22,381 nucleotides of DNA from a virus. Location of the stretch: IMG/VR virus record IMGVR_UViG_3300037508_001087, positions 1 to 22,381 of that record; one strand, written 5' to 3'. Each line of letters starts with the position of its first letter. Position 1 is the first letter of the stretch. Below the pieces are notes generated by a model. The model saw only the letters and a list, made by a program, of their open reading frames with translations, was not told the origin of the DNA and did no database searches. Shown one piece after another: positions 3,272-22,277 of this stretch. A program made the translations under genes and the position numbers.

Positions 3272-3619
3272 ATGTCGTCTTCTAACCATATTAAAGTACA
3301 AGAACTATCGGACGGTTCGGTTGTTGTCAAAATAAAAGACGGCACCGAATACGGGATGAAAGAACCTAAAGTCAGAGCATTTATGGAATTAGAAAGTTGG
3401 ACTAATTCTGAAGATCCTCTTGTTAAAACCCAGTTAGGTGTGGCGATGAAAGTTATTTCATTGTGCATTCACCAAAAGAATGGAGAACCTTATAAAGTTA
3501 CGGATTTTGACCAGTTCTGTGATGATATATCAGTAGAGGACGTGGAGGTGTTAGGCGCTGGCCTAGCTAACTTTCAATCTGTCTTTGAATATCTCAACGA
3601 AAAAGCAACTAATATTTGA
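3272..3619 (+). CDS. Tail assembly chaperone, short form (G-like)
   Basis: A 115-residue acidic protein after the tube gene and before the tape measure gene. That is the slot of the tail assembly chaperone (lambda G, T4-like and P2 E analogues), which coats the tape measure during tube polymerisation. The sequence begins MSSSNHIKVQELSDGSVVVKIKDG and has helical later parts with no membrane segment. A second, start-poor frame overlaps its 3' end and runs on to base 3860, the arrangement expected of a programmed frameshift producing a longer chaperone. Family assignment rests on position, size and the frameshift arrangement. Confidence 0.75.
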   Translation: MSSSNHIKVQELSDGSVVVKIKDGTEYGMKEPKVRAFMELESWTNSEDPLVKTQLGVAMKVISLCIHQKNGEPYKVTDFDQFCDDISVEDVEVLGAGLANFQSVFEYLNEKATNI

Positions 3620-3860
3620 TTGTCAAGGTCGCACTTACGCGATCGCTGACTTTGTAGCGTTGTTAGTTATAGTCTCTGGTGGTTGCATATCTGAATCGTA
3701 TTTTAGATTATTAGATATGCCTGTATCAGAGGCTATTTACCATACTGAAGTGTTCAACCGATCCAAAGTATTAGAACGGTTATCATACGAAGAAGCTGAA
3801 CGACAGAAGATGGTCAACTCTATGGCTGGCAATTTTGAATGGGAACCCAACATAATTTGA
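3567..3860 (+). CDS. Tail assembly chaperone extension (T-like), made by frameshift
   Basis: This frame opens after TAG at 3564-3566 and ends at 3860. It has no convincing start of its own: the first candidate is TTG at 3585, without a ribosome site, and the first ATG is well inside the conserved-looking part. Downstream of the overlap it encodes QLIFDCQGRTYAIADFVALL and a helical tail with MPVSEAIYHTEVFNRSKVLERL. It is probably read as the C-terminal part of a fusion of about 196 residues with the gene at 3272. The run of five A at 3600-3604 sits in the overlap. The tape measure gene begins 10 bases after its stop, as usual for G/GT pairs. Confidence 0.75.
   Translation, partial: LTFNLSLNISTKKQLIFDCQGRTYAIADFVALLVIVSGGCISESYFRLLDMPVSEAIYHTEVFNRSKVLERLSYEEAERQKMVNSMAGNFEWEPNII
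3599..3605 (+). other. Candidate programmed frameshift site (-2 or +1)
   Basis: In the short-form frame the codons are GAA AAA GCA. The downstream frame is reached by a shift of -2 or +1. Lys-tRNA on AAA at 3602-3604 can re-pair perfectly with AAA at 3600-3602 (-2) or with AAG at 3603-3605 (+1). A -2 shift is known for the phage Mu tail chaperone pair; most others use -1. The direction is not decided by the sequence. Confidence 0.6.
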
Positions 3861-16366: not shown

Positions 16367-16420
16367 AGTATACAAAACGCTTGTAGAGGCTTCTAGGGGC
16401 CTTAGAGAGTATATTTAAGG

Positions 16421-16461
16421 AAAACCCCCTTCAGGTTATATTGTACCTGAAGGGGGTTTTT
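16421..16461. terminator. Bidirectional intrinsic terminator between convergent operons
   Basis: Perfect inverted repeat: AAAACCCCCTTCAGGT (16421-16436) and its complement at 16445-16460, with an 8-base loop. Four A flank the left side and five T the right, so the hairpin can end both the plus-strand tail transcript and the minus-strand transcript from the diguanylate cyclase unit. The stretch 16358-16489 holds no supported gene. Confidence 0.93.
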
Positions 16462-16489
16462 CGTTCGTTGTAGGCGATTCTGGAAGGGG

Positions 16490-16684: not shown

Positions 16685-17245
16685 TTAATTGAATACTGCT
16701 TGATCGCGGCCAGAAGCTTTAGCTCGATAGAGGCGATTATCCGCTATCGTATAAAGCTCTTCGATATTAGGAGTTTCGTTGGTATCCGACACTCCAATAG
16801 ATACGGTTATATTCAATTGTCTTGCCACCTCGTTAACGAGGCTTACGATCCGTTGCGTTTGCTCTTTCCTCGTACTAGGAAGTACAATCGCAAACTCTTC
16901 GCCGCCTAAACGAAAAACTTTATCGCCCGCTCTTTCGATAGAACGAACTAGACCGTTACCCAAAGCCGAAAGTAGACGATCGCCAGCTTGGTGTCCGTGG
17001 CTATCGTTATACTTTTTGAAGAAGTCGATATCGATAATTAAAAGAGAAGCGGTACTGTTAGAGCGGTAAGCAATATTCAGTTGCTCTTTAATATACTGAT
17101 CAAAGAAGCGTCGATTGCCGCAGCCCGTTAAGCAGTCCACAAAAACTAACTTCCGTAGATTAGCGTTCTCTTCTTCGAGTCTAGAGATCTTACGTTTAAG
17201 AAACGATACGATTTCTATTTTATTATTCTTGATCGCGGTAACCAT
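16685..17245 (-). CDS. Stand-alone diguanylate cyclase (GGDEF)
   Basis: A 186-residue GGDEF protein. The start is the ATG at 17245, behind AGAGGAAAAAAACA; a longer frame from 17290 overlaps no ribosome site. After a short basic/coiled N-terminus (residues 7-32) come all conserved blocks: D37-CLTGCGNRR, DIDFFKKYNDSHGHQAGD from D72, the active loop GGEEF at 114-118, and SIGVS. The inhibitory I-site is present as R105-A-G-D108, five residues before GGEEF, as in PleD. It should make cyclic di-GMP from two GTP and be feedback inhibited. There is no sensor domain, so activity may be set by expression and dimerisation through the N-terminal coil. Cyclic di-GMP affects motility, aggregation and surface polysaccharide in cyanobacteria; which output matters here is unknown. 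Confidence 0.93.
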   Translation of the reverse strand: MVTAIKNNKIEIVSFLKRKISRLEEENANLRKLVFVDCLTGCGNRRFFDQYIKEQLNIAYRSNSTASLLIIDIDFFKKYNDSHGHQAGDRLLSALGNGLVRSIERAGDKVFRLGGEEFAIVLPSTRKEQTQRIVSLVNEVARQLNITVSIGVSDTNETPNIEELYTIADNRLYRAKASGRDQAVFN

Positions 17246-17274
17246 TGTTTTTTTCCTCTCGCGTGTGTAATTTT

Positions 17275-17652
17275 TCAAAACTGTGGCCAAGTTAAAAGGT
17301 CAGAATATTTTCCCGTTTCAGCACGGGTTAATTGGTTAAGTTTATTTTCGGAAAAGAAGGACACATCGTTATTATCCACCTCTAAAATATCGTGGAGATT
17401 ATCGAAGAACCAATTTCTAATTAAGTCTTTGTTGCGATCGCTCTGATATTTCGATAATAAATATCGTTTGACCTCAGCGCTGACACCAGACTTTTTTAGC
17501 TGCTGGTAATTCGGGTGGATATATTTAAGAAAGTTTAGTCGAACGGTTTCTTTAGAGACACCAAACTCTTTTCCTACTTCTAAAAGCGATTTACCCAAAA
17601 TATATTGGACAAATTGGCGCTTAACTAGATTGAGTTTCGTTTGGTTCGTCAC
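17275..17652 (-). CDS. Small helix-turn-helix DNA-binding protein
   Basis: A 125-residue protein starting at GTG 17652, with GAGG nine bases upstream. Residues about 20-46 form a helix-turn-helix of the kind seen in sigma region 4 or transposase/resolvase N-termini (LLEVGKEFGVSKETVRLNFL). The remainder is helical, with a Lys/Arg-rich middle (SAEVKRYLLSKYQSDRNKD) and an acidic stretch before the C-terminus; no second known domain is seen. It is first in a unit with the diguanylate cyclase (29 bases downstream) and is probably its regulator. Palindromic TATCTTTAAGATA and a repeat of it lie in the upstream region and are candidate binding sites. It could instead be a remnant of a mobile-element protein. 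Confidence 0.7.
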   Translation of the reverse strand: MTNQTKLNLVKRQFVQYILGKSLLEVGKEFGVSKETVRLNFLKYIHPNYQQLKKSGVSAEVKRYLLSKYQSDRNKDLIRNWFFDNLHDILEVDNNDVSFFSENKLNQLTRAETGKYSDLLTWPQF

Positions 17653-17973: not shown

Positions 17974-19461
17974 TTAAGCTCCTAAAGAGATAGTGGTGTC
18001 AGATAGAGTTAGATAACCTTCGTCAACCAGTTTGGTTATATGGCTTATCCACGCATCTTTAGATCTGCTATCGATTACGCCTCCATTAAATAAAGTGGAT
18101 ACGAAAGCGGATTTAGAAGATAGAGAGGATAGTTTAAGTTCCTTAGCGTCGTCAAGTTCGTTAAAGAGCTTGCAGTAGGCGATCGCAGTAACAGCATTGG
18201 GTTTTTTGTTTTTCGCTGCTGACTTTACCGTTTCGGTATTATACTTAACGAGAAAATCAGCTACCTTACTATTAGTAGTAGGAGCGATCTCGTTTTCAGT
18301 AGTAGTAGGAACGGTAAAGGTAGAACCGCTAAGGGATTTTAGTTCGCCCTTATATTCGGGTAGAACGTCGTAATAGAGATCTTCGTTGTCACCTAACCAA
18401 AGCTGGAAATATCGGTTAGGATTATTGTTGATCTCTATTTTCTGGGATTCGTTCAACCTTAGACCACCAATCTTTTCGATAATAGTAGACCCCATATTAC
18501 GTTGCCGTTTTAGAGGTAGAACCAATCGAAAATTTTGCTGGATTATATCTAAATCCATTCCTAAAGGTCCAGCGTTTTTAGTTTGACCCAGAACTACAAC
18601 GTAGCAACCGATAGCAGCACCTTGGGTTGCTATTTCGATTTGAAGTCCAGCAATATCCTTAGCTAGATTCTTGATACCAGAACGATTAGCGTAAGTCTGA
18701 AGTTGAATAGCTTCGTCAAAAACGAACCATTCAGGCTCTAGATTAGGATCAGCGGCGTGGGCTGCTAGTTTATTACCCCAATCGGTAACTAACTTTTGGA
18801 GCTGTGCAGCTTTTTGATCGGTGTTCCCACTAATTAGAACACCATTCCAATTAGTAGGGATTAGATCGGTAGCTTTAGTGGACACGTAATTAACGCGATC
18901 GTAGCCGTCTAGAAGGACTCGTAAGGCGTTAGTTTTGCCTTCCCGAGTACCGGCCATCAGAATAAAGTGGGGCGCGTCAGAATCGATTTCAATAGCCTTA
19001 CGGGGAATAACCTCGTTACTATTAAGAACGATCGCTCCTTCAGTAGTAGTAACGGGTTCAGCTTTAGCAGCGATTGTTTTGATATTATCGTCCACTAAAG
19101 CGTAACGCTCTTCGTAGGCGATTTTTTTTAGATCTCCTTTATTGTCCCAGATTTTTCTGGCTATATCTAACTGTTCGTCTTGGCCTTTTAAGGCGTGAGC
19201 GATAGGCGTAAAGTTAGTAGTAGACCGAACTTCTTTCGCCTTACGCTGATAGGTTATATCGTTTTGGAGGCAGTAAGCGATACCAGCGGCGATACCCAAT
19301 ACGCCGATAAAAGGTCCACCAAAAAGAGATATACCACCAGCTAGAATCAACGTGGGTACAACAGCAGAAGAGTGATTTAGGTATTTATCGGCTAAAGCTA
19401 ATTCGGCTGTAGTTCTAACAGCTTGGATCGCTTCGGCTCGTAGTTCTAAAGAAGTGGACAT
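17974..19461 (-). CDS. Membrane-anchored FtsK/HerA-like P-loop ATPase
   Basis: A 495-residue protein starting at ATG 19461 behind a very strong AGGAGG. A hydrophobic hairpin at about residues 32-66 likely anchors it in the inner membrane. The ATPase domain follows: Walker A with Lys at 176 (AGTREGKT, residues 170-177), Walker B FVFDE at 246-250, and a sensor strand YVVVLGQTK near 287-295 with Gln293, as in FtsK/HerA/TraD-type motors. A conserved-looking basic part (LPLKRQRNMG, from 315) could hold an arginine finger. The last 60 residues look like a winged helix. The layout suggests a hexameric motor at the membrane that moves DNA or protein, similar in type to FtsK, conjugative coupling proteins or filamentous phage Zot/pI. 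It has no relaxase or coat gene beside it, so which cargo is moved is unknown. Confidence 0.75.
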   Translation of the reverse strand: MSTSLELRAEAIQAVRTTAELALADKYLNHSSAVVPTLILAGGISLFGGPFIGVLGIAAGIAYCLQNDITYQRKAKEVRSTTNFTPIAHALKGQDEQLDIARKIWDNKGDLKKIAYEERYALVDDNIKTIAAKAEPVTTTEGAIVLNSNEVIPRKAIEIDSDAPHFILMAGTREGKTNALRVLLDGYDRVNYVSTKATDLIPTNWNGVLISGNTDQKAAQLQKLVTDWGNKLAAHAADPNLEPEWFVFDEAIQLQTYANRSGIKNLAKDIAGLQIEIATQGAAIGCYVVVLGQTKNAGPLGMDLDIIQQNFRLVLPLKRQRNMGSTIIEKIGGLRLNESQKIEINNNPNRYFQLWLGDNEDLYYDVLPEYKGELKSLSGSTFTVPTTTENEIAPTTNSKVADFLVKYNTETVKSAAKNKKPNAVTAIAYCKLFNELDDAKELKLSSLSSKSAFVSTLFNGGVIDSRSKDAWISHITKLVDEGYLTLSDTTISLGA

Positions 19462-19492: not shown

Positions 19493-20161
19493 TTAACCTT
19501 TTAGACCGCGACGAATTAAATAGATATTGCGATCTATAAATTGCCACGCCCAGATAACGCCTTCTAAGGCGAACATCGTAATAAGCATTTGGACGACGTT
19601 ACCCCAATCGACACCAGCAAAATTCACGGTCATCAGAATCTCTTGGTATCCGTAACCGTCTTTTAGAGGAGGGAACACTTGAAGAAGGATTATCAGGTCG
19701 ATAACGTAAGAGATTGGTTGAATCCGTCTCCAAGTGTTGATAGGGGCTATATTGATCTTATTGAAACGATTTTTCAAAAATCGCATAAGATCGTCGTCGG
19801 AAGCTTCAATCGCTATTTGTGCTGCACCTTCCTTAGATTCTTGAGCCACCGCTGAAATTAGGATCTTTAATCCCAAGGGAGATCCAAGAAGCAAAGAAGG
19901 CATAACTTCACCGATTTGAACGATTGACCAGATAATAATTCCGGCGAATCTCGATGTGATAGTTAATAAAGTCCCAATCAAAGGAAGAGTAGCAACCCAA
20001 CCGTTTAGAGCGCCACTAAGATATCCGAGCGCCCAAATAGAGTAAGGTTCGATATTAGACGCGATAACGTAAAACAGACCACAAAGTAAAAGCCCCTTGA
20101 GTACCCAGAACAAAATAATAGGGGTGATTCCACCGTTGGGTTTCTTATAAGAAGCCGACAT
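19493..20161 (-). CDS. Polytopic membrane protein of unknown function
   Basis: A 222-residue protein with about five hydrophobic segments (roughly 12-34, 42-60, 70-93, 148-164 and 188-207) and a polar central loop (105-146) containing ASDDDLMRFLKNRFNKIN, which may face the ATPase in the cytoplasm. The C-terminus is basic (RNIYLIRRGLKG). The ATG overlaps the stop of the upstream gene (TAATG), so both are made together, and the ATPase gene follows after 31 bases. No family is recognised. Position and topology suggest it is the membrane channel or scaffold of the system driven by the downstream ATPase. Confidence 0.7.
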   Translation of the reverse strand: MSASYKKPNGGITPIILFWVLKGLLLCGLFYVIASNIEPYSIWALGYLSGALNGWVATLPLIGTLLTITSRFAGIIIWSIVQIGEVMPSLLLGSPLGLKILISAVAQESKEGAAQIAIEASDDDLMRFLKNRFNKINIAPINTWRRIQPISYVIDLIILLQVFPPLKDGYGYQEILMTVNFAGVDWGNVVQMLITMFALEGVIWAWQFIDRNIYLIRRGLKG

Positions 20162-20622
20162 TAGTTTGCCCTCCCGGATTCAATAGCTTGCTGAACTACG
20201 TTGCGATCGCCAGTAATACTGATATTTGAAGTTTTGCCGTCTTTAATAACGGCGGTTTCACCGTTAACAGTGCAGACGACAGTGTTATCGGCTAATGGTT
20301 GATTCGTGACAAGGTCCACAATAAGCATCCCCTCGTTAATAGAGATAGGACGATTAAACTCGTCTGCGCTAGTTACTAAACGGCAACCTTTCTGAAATCG
20401 AAGCTCTGCGTCAGCAGCGCTTTGATCTAGATGTCGTTGTAATTGATCACGTTCTACTTTTTCTCGGATGCTGATTTTATCGGTAGCAGCCAACTCTCTT
20501 CGAGTAGCCACGTTAGAAGGAGAAAAGTAGTTAATAGATCCGATAAAGATGGCAAAACCTAAAGCTCCAATCATTAAAGCTTTTTGGGGTTCGTCTTCGA
20601 TAAACTCGCGTAATCCGTGCAT
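20161..20622 (-). CDS. Single-pass membrane protein with periplasmic Cys pair
   Basis: A 153-residue protein starting at ATG 20622, preceded by AGGAG at a spacing of eight bases. A longer frame from GTG 20727 has no ribosome site and would run through the TGTGA repeats, so the shorter start is chosen. Residues 16-33 form one membrane helix after an acidic N-terminus; residues about 40-75 are charged and helical, probably a coiled coil; the rest is strand-rich with Cys80 and Cys117, possibly disulfide bonded in the periplasm. This topology is like bitopic assembly subunits that bridge the inner membrane to outer parts. No family is recognised. Confidence 0.7.
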   Translation of the reverse strand: MHGLREFIEDEPQKALMIGALGFAIFIGSINYFSPSNVATRRELAATDKISIREKVERDQLQRHLDQSAADAELRFQKGCRLVTSADEFNRPISINEGMLIVDLVTNQPLADNTVVCTVNGETAVIKDGKTSNISITGDRNVVQQAIESGRAN

Positions 20623-20790
20623 TGTGAAACTCCTAGAAAATAGTGTTTTTTTGGGTGTGAAAGGGCTGAAACCCTTGTGAACTCGTTGATTTTGTGAAAA
20701 AATCTGTGAAAAAGTGTGAAATTTCACAGATTATTTGTGAAAAAACTTGTGAAAAGGCTAAATCTGTGAAAGCCTTGTGACACAAGCGTT
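20623..20790. promoter_or_regulatory. Dense TGTGA array (iteron- or operator-like region)
   Basis: Ten direct copies of TGTGA begin at 20623, 20656, 20676, 20693, 20705, 20715, 20736, 20748, 20765 and 20776, mostly followed by A runs, plus one inverted copy at 20724. TGTGAAATTTCACA at 20715-20728 is a perfect palindrome. AATCTGTGAAA occurs at 20701-20711 and 20761-20771 and inverted at 20722-20732. The stretch is the leader of the downstream gene (start 20622) and begins right after the stop of the previous one. A CRP-type or plasmid-iteron-type binding region is suggested. Confidence 0.75.
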
Positions 20791-21396
20791 TTAGAGATTT
20801 AGTTCAATATCACCTCCTTCCTCGTTAGTATCAACTTTGGTGGTCACGCTAGGGGTCGATTGGGTACGTTTGGTGCCAGTTTTTTTGAAAAAGAGGTAAC
20901 CAGTAGTTCCTAAAATTGCTAAGCCTGCGATCAATAGAAGACCACTAAAAGAATTAGACGAGGCTGATTCTACGTTGGCTGTAAGGGGTTCAGAAGGTTC
21001 TTGAACAGTCGTTACAGTAATAGGCGTAGAACTGGTAGCGTTTACCTTATTAAGCACGTCTACGGTCCTTGTAAGAGGAGCTAGAGTAGTATCACCACCA
21101 GTAACGCAAACGCCAGCAGAACTAAGGGTTAAAACGCTTTCGCTACTAGAGGCTTTATGCGAACCTTCAAGTCTATAGACCTCTTCGTTTTGAAAAAGGA
21201 ATACAGTTTGACCTTCCGCAGTCCAAACCTCAGTAAGCTGATCGCACTTAGGACGAAAAGCAATATCAGGTCTAGAAGCGATAGGGAACGCTTGCTTAAC
21301 GTTGGTTACACCGTAATCACGGGCGGCTACGGTTTGATAAGCTGTCAGGGACTCTTTGGCTAGTTCGGTTAGAGAGGTTATAGAAGTGGTGTCCAT
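20791..21396 (-). CDS. Membrane protein with C-terminal anchor and extracytoplasmic Cys pair
   Basis: A 201-residue protein starting at ATG 21396, behind GAGGAAAAAACA. Residues 1-150 are soluble and strand-rich, with Cys51 and Cys97, followed by a Ser/Thr/Pro linker, one membrane helix at 151-170 (SGLLLIAGLAILGTTGYLFF) and a basic KKTGTKR tail. By the positive-inside rule the tail is cytoplasmic and the first 150 residues should be outside, yet this form has no signal peptide. The same frame is open upstream to 21648 and encodes a hydrophobic segment that could serve as one; a -1 frameshift in the preceding gene would supply it. Both a short and a fused product may exist. No family is recognised. 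Confidence 0.65.
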   Translation of the reverse strand: MDTTSITSLTELAKESLTAYQTVAARDYGVTNVKQAFPIASRPDIAFRPKCDQLTEVWTAEGQTVFLFQNEEVYRLEGSHKASSSESVLTLSSAGVCVTGGDTTLAPLTRTVDVLNKVNATSSTPITVTTVQEPSEPLTANVESASSNSFSGLLLIAGLAILGTTGYLFFKKTGTKRTQSTPSVTTKVDTNEEGGDIELNL

Positions 21397-21426
21397 TGTT
21401 TTTTCCTCGTTGTGAAAATTGTTTGG

Positions 21427-21527
21427 ACTACTGTGACGGGTTAAACTACTGTGACTACTGTGACGGGTTAAACTACTGTGATGAGGCGGTTTTTGCTCCT
21501 CTGTCACGGTATTCACAGTAGTCACAG
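21427..21527. repeat. 27-base tandem repeat and 15-base inverted repeat
   Basis: Bases 21427-21453 and 21454-21480 are identical 27-base units built on ACTACTGTG and GACGGGTTAA, followed by one more base of match. CTGTGACTACTGTGA at 21449-21463 is perfectly complementary to 21513-21527, a 15-bp inverted repeat with a 49-base spacer. TGTGA cores are shared with the array at 20623-20790. On the minus strand the duplicated unit keeps the reading frame and codes for HSSLTRHSS twice. Confidence 0.85.
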
Positions 21528-21611
21528 TGTCGTATTTTTGGGGATTTTGTGAACATCGCGACAAAACGGTTGCCGAGGCCCCAGCCAAGATGACTAGGGC
21601 CAAAGCAATAA

Positions 21612-22103
21612 TTAGGCCGTTTGTGCGGTTGGAGGCTTTCCCAAGCCGTTAGCCAGATTCACAGTAGCTTGGGCTGCTAAACCGGCTACAGCGTGGCGAT
21701 TCTGAGCGATGGTATGGTGAACCGTAGTCACCAAGTCAGCTTGCAAGTACTCCCCAATGGCGGCTAATCCCTGAGAAGTCACGTTATGGAAATGTGCAGC
21801 TTCCTGGTCAAGGGCCTGGGTGTTTGCCTGGGTCAGGTTGATAGTTAAATTGGCAATGCTGATCGGGACGATGCCAGCGGCGGCGGGGCTGTGCAGCACC
21901 ATACCGGTTTCAAACTCGGGTTCTAGTACTTCAGCGACTATTTCCGGTTGTACCTCTGGTTCAGGACAAAAATGAGCTAAAGTCGCTGTGATTGTTTCGG
22001 GACTAAGACCGTCAGTAGTATCAAAACCGTTATCTTTGAGCCAACGATGGACTGTGGACTTAGCGAGATTGTGATCTTTGCAGAAGGAGTGTAGAGAAGT
22101 CAT
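21612..22103 (-). CDS. Small HTH protein, first gene of the membrane-ATPase operon
   Basis: A 163-residue protein starting at ATG 22103 behind AGGAAACAAACTT. Residues 1-45 form a helix-turn-helix (FCKDHNLAKSTVHRWLKDNG), similar in type to MerR or transposase N-terminal folds. An acidic linker follows (50-70), then an Ala/Gln/His-rich helical part. Base composition is higher in G+C than the downstream genes (36 of 60 at 21841-21900; 28 of 60 at 19561-19620), hinting at a different history. Codons 154-156 contain the heptamer G_GGA_AAG in frame, 22 bases before the stop. It may control its own operon through the GGAAC/GTTCC sites upstream; that is inference. Confidence 0.65.
   Translation of the reverse strand: MTSLHSFCKDHNLAKSTVHRWLKDNGFDTTDGLSPETITATLAHFCPEPEVQPEIVAEVLEPEFETGMVLHSPAAAGIVPISIANLTINLTQANTQALDQEAAHFHNVTSQGLAAIGEYLQADLVTTVHHTIAQNRHAVAGLAAQATVNLANGLGKPPTAQTA
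21636..21642 (-). other. Candidate -1 programmed frameshift heptamer GGGAAAG
   Basis: On the minus strand the HTH gene codons are TTG GGA AAG, so the bases G GGA AAG fit the X_XXY_YYZ slip pattern in the correct phase. GGGAAAG is the slip sequence of the lambda G/T genes. It falls within the 37-base window (21612-21648) where both frames are open. The nearest obvious stem (GGCCC/GGGCC, 21577-21601) is about 35 bases downstream, farther than usual for a stimulator. Confidence 0.55.
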
Positions 22104-22137: not shown

Positions 22138-22236
22138 TTGGGACGGTTTGGAACGGGTTTGGAACGGACAAATAGTAAGAATTCCGTTCCAATTCTGTTC
22201 CGATTAAGTACTGGTAACGTTCCTAGAGCGTTCCAG
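22138..22236. promoter_or_regulatory. Seven phased GGAAC/GTTCC sites upstream of the operon
   Basis: Nine-base sites like TTGGAACGG begin at 22138 (one variant base), 22148 and 22159 in one direction, and sites like CCGTTCCAA begin at 22184, 22195, 22217 and 22228 in the other. Spacings are 10, 11, then 11, 22 and 11 bases, so all lie on nearly the same face of the helix. The inner pair is a perfect 10-bp inverted repeat (22159-22168 and 22183-22192). This is the leader of the HTH gene. Confidence 0.8.
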
Positions 22237-22277
22237 TTATAGTGATACTATAGGGCGAAAATAAATACCTATTTCAA
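22236..22277 (-). promoter_or_regulatory. Candidate promoter of the membrane-ATPase operon
   Basis: On the minus strand TTGAAA (22277-22272) is followed after 19 bases by TATAGT (22252-22247), and TATAAC lies at 22241-22236. Spacing is longer than optimal, so this is a weak call. Transcription from here would run through the GGAAC/GTTCC array before the HTH start at 22103. Confidence 0.3.

Follow-up and report, generated by a model that had tools for sequence, protein, structure and literature searches.

The 22,381-base IMG/VR virus record IMGVR_UViG_3300037508_001087 of a cyanobacterial virus, which was analysed over its full length and is called the window below, carries contractile-tail genes like those of cyanophage tails and, on its minus strand, a gene for a protein with a helix-turn-helix (HTH) domain and a long coiled coil. 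The last codons of this HTH gene contain the heptamer GGGAAAG, and comparison with homologues strongly supports −1 frameshifting at this point. Very probably, the frameshifting is programmed and conserved, and it provides the predicted DNA-binding protein in a free form and in a membrane-tethered form. Most ribosomes would produce a soluble protein composed of an N-terminal HTH DNA-binding domain and the coiled coil, and a minority would slip by −1 at G_GGA_AAG just before the stop codon and add a membrane span, usually after a basic linker.

Slip site and −1 frame in the virus

On the minus strand, the HTH gene ends with TTG GGA AAG CCT CCA ACC GCA CAA ACG GCC TAA, and GGGAAAG (21642-21636) sits in the X_XXY_YYZ phase. 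We take this heptamer to be that of the lambda G/GT frameshift. An earlier note on this DNA had placed the heptamer in phase in the last codons of the HTH gene, inside a 37-base stretch where the −1 frame is open. Both statements are exact, with the last −1-frame stop before the slip being TAA at 21651-21649 and the zero-frame stop being TAA at 21614-21612. The sequence likewise agrees with its claim that the −1 frame stays open as far as 20791, and the predicted frameshift fusion in the virus thus has 437 amino acids (aa). The basic-then-hydrophobic character assigned to the −1 segment was also borne out: GKASNRTNG is followed by LIIALALVILAGASATVLS, which has a 17-residue Kyte-Doolittle mean of 2.60 and is well predicted to insert into a membrane. 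When the region was shuffled with its dinucleotides preserved, no shuffle gave a hydrophobic −1 segment of this kind (0 of 3000). GGGAAAG alone is non-significant in the window, with 2 occurrences observed and 2.4 expected. The significance of the slip site comes from the homologues, the window alone being insufficient.

Downstream of the HTH gene, the −1 frame passes through direct and inverted CACAGTAGT repeats and reaches an open reading frame (ORF) of 201 aa. As no −1 stop lies in between, the viral fusion would run on into this ORF, and the tethered form would here extend through the outer domain of the 201-aa protein to a second span. The earlier proposal that the slip fuses the HTH protein to a membrane protein is supported, with a qualification: a predicted membrane span follows the slip in all copies, but the continuation through the 201-aa protein is restricted to this virus among the copies compared, and the 201-aa ORF possesses an ATG of its own together with a sequence resembling a Shine-Dalgarno (SD) motif. 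No homologue of the 201-aa protein was found in 42 genomes of the host-type order. All features are listed in Table 1.

Table 1. Coordinates of the predicted features in the window.
Feature	Position	Strand	Basis
HTH + coiled-coil gene, zero frame, 163 aa	21612..22103	-	ORF; AlphaFold model; L144 homology
Slippery heptamer G_GGA_AAG (GGGAAAG), in phase (TTG GGA AAG)	21636..21642	-	Sequence; same place and phase in 24 homologues
Zero-frame stop TAA, end of the free protein	21612..21614	-	Sequence
Open −1 frame entered by the slip; length 283 codons, counted from the heptamer as far as the 20791 stop	20791..21648	-	Sequence
−1-frame segment predicted to span the membrane, LIIALALVILAGASATVLS, after GKASNRTNG	21559..21615	-	Hydropathy; homologues
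Strong RNA stem-loop, predicted to follow the slip site and possibly stimulating it in this virus alone	21570..21608	-	Folding z-scores
Repeats in the spacer that separates the HTH gene and the 201-aa ORF, direct (2 x 27 nt) and inverted CACAGTAGT	21426..21528	.	D1, I3, I4
201-aa ORF in the same frame as the −1 extension; has an ATG of its own, an SD-like GAGGA and a membrane span at the C-terminus	20791..21396	-	Sequence
GGAACG/CGTTCC repeat cluster preceding the HTH gene (candidate centromere or operator)	22145..22240	.	CGTTCCA x4, shuffle p 0.015; repeats I5, D17
153-aa single-span membrane protein, outside domain with two conserved cysteines (GC...VC), module gene 2	20161..20622	-	Family alignment
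222-aa multi-span membrane protein, module gene 3	19493..20161	-	BLASTP E 3e-16 to provirus copy; profile matches in many cyanobacterial genomes
495-aa P-loop ATPase, N-terminal membrane span, FtsK/TcpA/HerA-like fold	17974..19461	-	Foldseek

Conservation of the slip site and the −1 segment

Homologues were sought both for the HTH gene and for the neighbouring module of membrane proteins and an ATPase. Two near-identical contigs of the same virus (L001 and L002; L numbers denote contigs and loci) show no differences in the HTH region that they cover, and their comparison was therefore uninformative. Pattern scans of viral contigs with the HTH, 201-aa, 222-aa and ATPase proteins returned near-identical copies of the virus only, and an ATPase pattern scan of genome contigs gave no match. 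A helicase relative (L016) is without the module, and BLAST searches of phages and plasmids for the module mostly yielded nothing, the exceptions being one plasmid with the 222-aa family and the plasmids of Leptolyngbya sp. BL0902. By way of relatives of the sheath protein, a homologous operon that includes the 222-aa protein (BLASTP E 3e-16) was found in a cyanobacterial provirus (L058). Profiles of the 222-aa family and then a profile of the HTH + coil gene (A7) were used for the homologue searches. With A7, about 24 loci were found in 10 of 42 genomes of one cyanobacterial order, and one clear genome only in a sample of 386 genomes of the phylum. The comparison set consisted of the 22 genome copies whose 3′ end is intact, together with two BL0902 plasmid copies, WP_198808652.1 on unnamed5 and WP_198808371.1 on unnamed1. 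The latter (L208, 5788-6597) is annotated from an internal start; the real gene begins upstream and includes the HTH. A CyRepA1-family replication gene is located a few kb upstream of it.

The slip site occurs at the same C-terminal codons and in the same phase in all 24 other copies, as GGGAAAG (20), GGGGAAG (3) or AAAAAAG (1); with the window, the tally is 21, 3 and 1 (n=25). Both G_GGA_AAG and A_AAA_AAG are highly shift-prone in E. coli (PMC5009743). Directly after the slip, a hydrophobic, membrane-span-like −1 segment is present in 25 of 25 copies, although in L178, which looks degenerate, a stop interrupts the span. Examples are GKASSRRLTRLLLLIGLMVLAWALLRAS (L133), GKARRHKSPTLGVYVALVLVGAVIAVLLF* (BL0902 unnamed5) and KKAPGLSRRQVAALLLMGACIGGLMVAFLM (L135). 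In most copies a basic stretch precedes the span, and the net charge, averaged over the family, is +2.0 for the 15 residues ahead of it and −0.3 for the 15 that follow, which fits the expectation for an anchor with its N-terminus inside. The −1 product of the relatives stops 19-70 residues (mostly 36-54) after the slip, and the tethered form of the genome and plasmid copies would end there, shortly past the span. The earlier note had proposed to check whether homologues keep the heptamer and an open −1 frame. The 24 other copies do, with a hydrophobic segment in that frame; none has the slip site destroyed but the −1 segment kept.

The synonymous sites were assessed in a codon alignment of 14 representatives. 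Here, the slip codons are frozen, with glycine written as GGA in 12 and GGG in 2 and lysine as AAG in 14 of 14, and the preceding codon ends in G in every representative. Nearly all other conserved residues that have synonyms show mixed codons, and elsewhere in the family genes GGA accounts for 12.6% of glycine and AAG for 49% of lysine codons. For a glutamine that lies four codons before the slip lysine, 12 of 12 representatives use CAA, a further synonymous freeze for which we have no explanation.

The specificity of the arrangement was scanned in 548 ORFs of >=150 aa from the fetched loci. An in-phase GGGAAAG or AAAAAAG near the 3′ end was found in 17 of them; 15 of these 17 also have a −1 span, and all 15 are family members. 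In a coil gene of the two-gene type (L085, position 2902), an in-phase GGGAAAG lies 85 nucleotides (nt) before the stop, with an open −1 frame of 119 codons that includes a membrane span.

Stimulators, start codons and alternative explanations

The stem-loop predicted downstream of the viral slip site reaches a z-score of −4.0 for 21645-21540, and of −4.4 when the 75 nt that follow the heptamer are taken; approximately 40 of 2232 folding windows along the contig (about 2%) fold equally well. Strong downstream stem-loops are found in the window, L158 and L162, and most members are without one. A conserved hairpin as the stimulator of the whole family was hence considered and rejected for want of conservation. 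An Rfam search gave no match.

Several points weigh against conserved programmed frameshifting to a membrane-tethered DNA-binding protein. The frameshift product is a prediction from sequence, and the GGGGAAG of three copies is a weaker slip site. The family has neither a conserved 3′ stem-loop nor an SD-like upstream stimulator, and the frameshift efficiency may therefore be low. In six copies, the zero-frame stop overlaps with a start codon (ATG in L158, L162 and L174; GTG in L180; TTG in L164 and L177), so that coupled re-initiation could also make the span there. Within the searches made, the family is limited to one cyanobacterial order and this virus, and many copies are closely related, forming 11 clusters at 90% identity. 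Finally, the fold match of the HTH domain that is described below is non-significant.

The overlapping starts suggest another origin of the membrane span: the −1 segment could be a small membrane-protein gene in its own right, overlapping the HTH gene, with ribosomes that finish at the HTH stop re-initiating there in a coupled manner. ATGA-type overlapping starts do occur between other genes of the module as well. However, ten copies from at least four lineages (L165/L167/L171/L175/L178, L169/L173, L186 and L172/L182) have no ATG, GTG or TTG in the −1 frame before the span, and frameshifting is therefore the only standard route there. The sole −1 start candidate of the window is a TTG within the span, 11 nt downstream of the first base of the stop codon, and it has no SD motif. 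Since re-initiation would also leave the frozen slip codons unexplained, we regard it as improbable. Slightly less credit still is due to the view that the virus needs only the HTH protein and a separately initiated 201-aa protein, with the −1 frame open by chance and the region between them made up of regulatory repeats. It draws on the SD-like sequence of the 201-aa ORF, on the repeats in the spacer, the next intergenic stretch being rich in repeats too, and on the shuffles, 4.6% of which keep the −1 frame open over the 72 codons that separate the HTH stop from the 201-aa ATG; yet it does not account for a conserved heptamer and hydrophobic segment that the virus shares with distant copies on plasmids and in genomes. 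Where a reading frame breaks near the end of a gene, the cause is often an indel in a former in-frame fusion, in this case of HTH and membrane parts, or a sequencing error. For such an origin to hold here, the same codon would have to be broken in 25 copies, always with a shift-prone sequence, while no in-frame HTH-membrane fusion was seen among the homologues found and a second assembly of the virus (L001) is identical across the region, which makes it very unlikely indeed.

Protein architecture and comparison with known systems

The AlphaFold model of the HTH protein contains helices at residues 4-10, 15-24 and 35-45 with a predicted local distance difference test score (pLDDT) of about 90, which form a three-helix HTH (residues 1-50), and the coiled coil is modelled with moderate confidence as one long helix (96-153). 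The L144 protein is homologous to that of the window at 34% identity. Among PDB structures, the best fold match of the model was 8csh, the centromere-bound domain of pSK1 Par (probability 0.93, E 0.5), with RacA and BldC ranking below it. Because of this E-value, the match is a lead and no proof, and the three helices are a candidate MerR-type winged HTH, the kind expected of a segregation protein of the pSK1 Par/RacA/RocS type. In Pfam searches, the HTH + coil proteins of the window, L144 and L133 matched neither DUF536 nor any other family, KfrA_N included. The repeat cluster upstream of the HTH gene would be a candidate DNA target of the protein, and the L204 homologue is likewise preceded by a GTTCCAA cluster. 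Direct repeats as a general upstream centromere were rejected, as the enrichment is limited to these two.

The overall architecture of the HTH + coil protein resembles that of pSK1 Par, RacA and RocS. RocS of Streptococcus pneumoniae, a relative of this type, is reported to link the nucleoid with the membrane by means of its HTH, its coiled coil and an amphipathic helix at the C-terminus (PMC11500499). RocS and the staphylococcal pSK1 Par share the N-terminal HTH and the coiled coil with the protein described here, and C-terminal membrane binding has been reported for RocS and suggested for Par (PMC11500499). However, every RocS or Par molecule carries its membrane element, an amphipathic helix, as an in-frame part, whereas here the element is a predicted transmembrane segment in the −1 frame, and only frameshifted molecules would thus carry the anchor. 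KfrA-type plasmid proteins also combine a DNA-binding N-terminal head with a long coiled coil and are linked to segregation; the abstract describes neither a membrane segment nor a frameshift for them (PMC7821693).

With regards to recoding, −1 frameshifting in lambda yields gpG and gpGT at a ratio of about 30:1 (PMC5009743). The lambda protein is unrelated, though, and the part added here is a membrane span; moreover, the gene lies outside the tail-chaperone position, which in the window is at 3272-3860, immediately ahead of the tape measure gene, about 18 kb from the HTH gene and on the opposite strand. Bacterial insertion sequence elements produce a DNA-binding protein either by itself or joined, through a −1 shift, to a second domain (PMC5009743), but the fused part is the catalytic domain of the transposase and not a membrane anchor. 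Both frameshifting and HTH-coil segregation proteins are already known, and it is the supply of a membrane anchor by recoding that is new, as far as the open-access papers searched show; no bacterial case of frameshifting that chooses between a free and a membrane-tethered DNA-binding protein was described in them.

The membrane module and the possible role of tethering

Genes of the window-type HTH + coil protein often stand upstream of small membrane proteins and an ATPase like FtsK or TcpA. In the window, this module comprises the 153-aa, 222-aa and 495-aa proteins. Foldseek related the 495-aa protein to EssC (6e-5), FtsK (1e-4) and TcpA (2.5e-4), on a model with a low pLDDT of 54. It would thus resemble the FtsK and TcpA translocases as a membrane-anchored P-loop ATPase with a similar fold, and it differs from them in matching no Pfam or NCBIfam family above the cut-off. 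The 201-aa ORF has no significant link to the 153-aa family; a paralogy of its domain with the outer domain of that family was dismissed, as there was a suggestive motif but no significant profile match. The intergenic stretch before the 153-aa gene (20640-20780) is dense in TTTCACA/TGTGAAA repeats.

The module (153-aa type, 222-aa type and P-loop ATPase) is found in many cyanobacterial genomes and on a Kovacikia plasmid. It is preceded by a pair of HTH and coil genes, by a ParM-like actin gene and a small gene, or by a single HTH + coil gene like that of the window. The ParM-like actin (Pfam ALP_N) with its small second gene, which is similar to ribbon-helix-helix proteins in some cases, was seen at L086, L088, L092, L124, L125, L148 and others, and together with the module it appears to be an undescribed cyanobacterial operon for segregation or transfer. 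This work also exposes a widespread and unannotated membrane module with an FtsK/TcpA-like ATPase, which alternates with ParM-like actin pairs. In the Leptolyngbya phage Lbo402-yong5 (L009, 24082-24318, minus strand), a similar module ends in a 494-aa protein named 'DNA translocase coupling protein', and an ORF in the +1 frame, with a membrane span and its own ATG, overlaps a 171-aa gene at its end.

As the HTH gene is often found upstream of the small membrane proteins and the FtsK/TcpA-like ATPase, and the module elsewhere follows a ParM-like pair, tethering of the element's DNA for segregation or transfer is the likely role. The tethered form would dock this DNA to the membrane machine, and the free form would set the stoichiometry and may regulate its own gene. 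Whatever the role, the case for frameshifting is unaffected if the module serves DNA transfer, conjugation-like or as in a phage-plasmid, with the tethered protein delivering DNA to the ATPase. This is a possibility to be taken seriously, if not the favoured one: the ATPase fold resembles the coupling protein TcpA and FtsK, the Kovacikia module plasmid carries relaxase genes, and an M23 peptidase is encoded near a BL0902 plasmid copy. Against transfer stand the ParM-like actin and small second gene upstream of many modules and the fact that the nearest HTH-coil analogues, by fold match and architecture, are segregation proteins (PMC11500499).

More tentatively, cyanobacterial plasmids and phages might set the membrane-anchored fraction of a segregation or transfer adaptor by recoding and so feed a new membrane machine built of small membrane proteins and the FtsK/TcpA-like ATPase; in the virus, with its outer domain, a single polypeptide would then link the DNA of the element to the outside of the cell membrane. 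If frameshifting does decide between the free and the tethered form, the stoichiometry of a DNA-membrane tether is tied to a translational switch in cyanobacterial plasmids and phages.

Other features of the contig

The two tail-chaperone ORFs (3272-3619 and 3585-3860, plus strand) overlap, the second lying in the +1 frame of the first, and have no canonical −1 heptamer; the pair would need +1/−2 shifting or a separate start. A gene for a GGDEF diguanylate cyclase was found at 16685-17290 on the minus strand (Pfam E 1e-39), and most nearby differences from two sister contigs fall in it, for example at 17057-17069. Between the convergent gene blocks, a very strong hairpin is predicted at 16419-16462 (z about −6.8), which is terminator-like on the plus strand.
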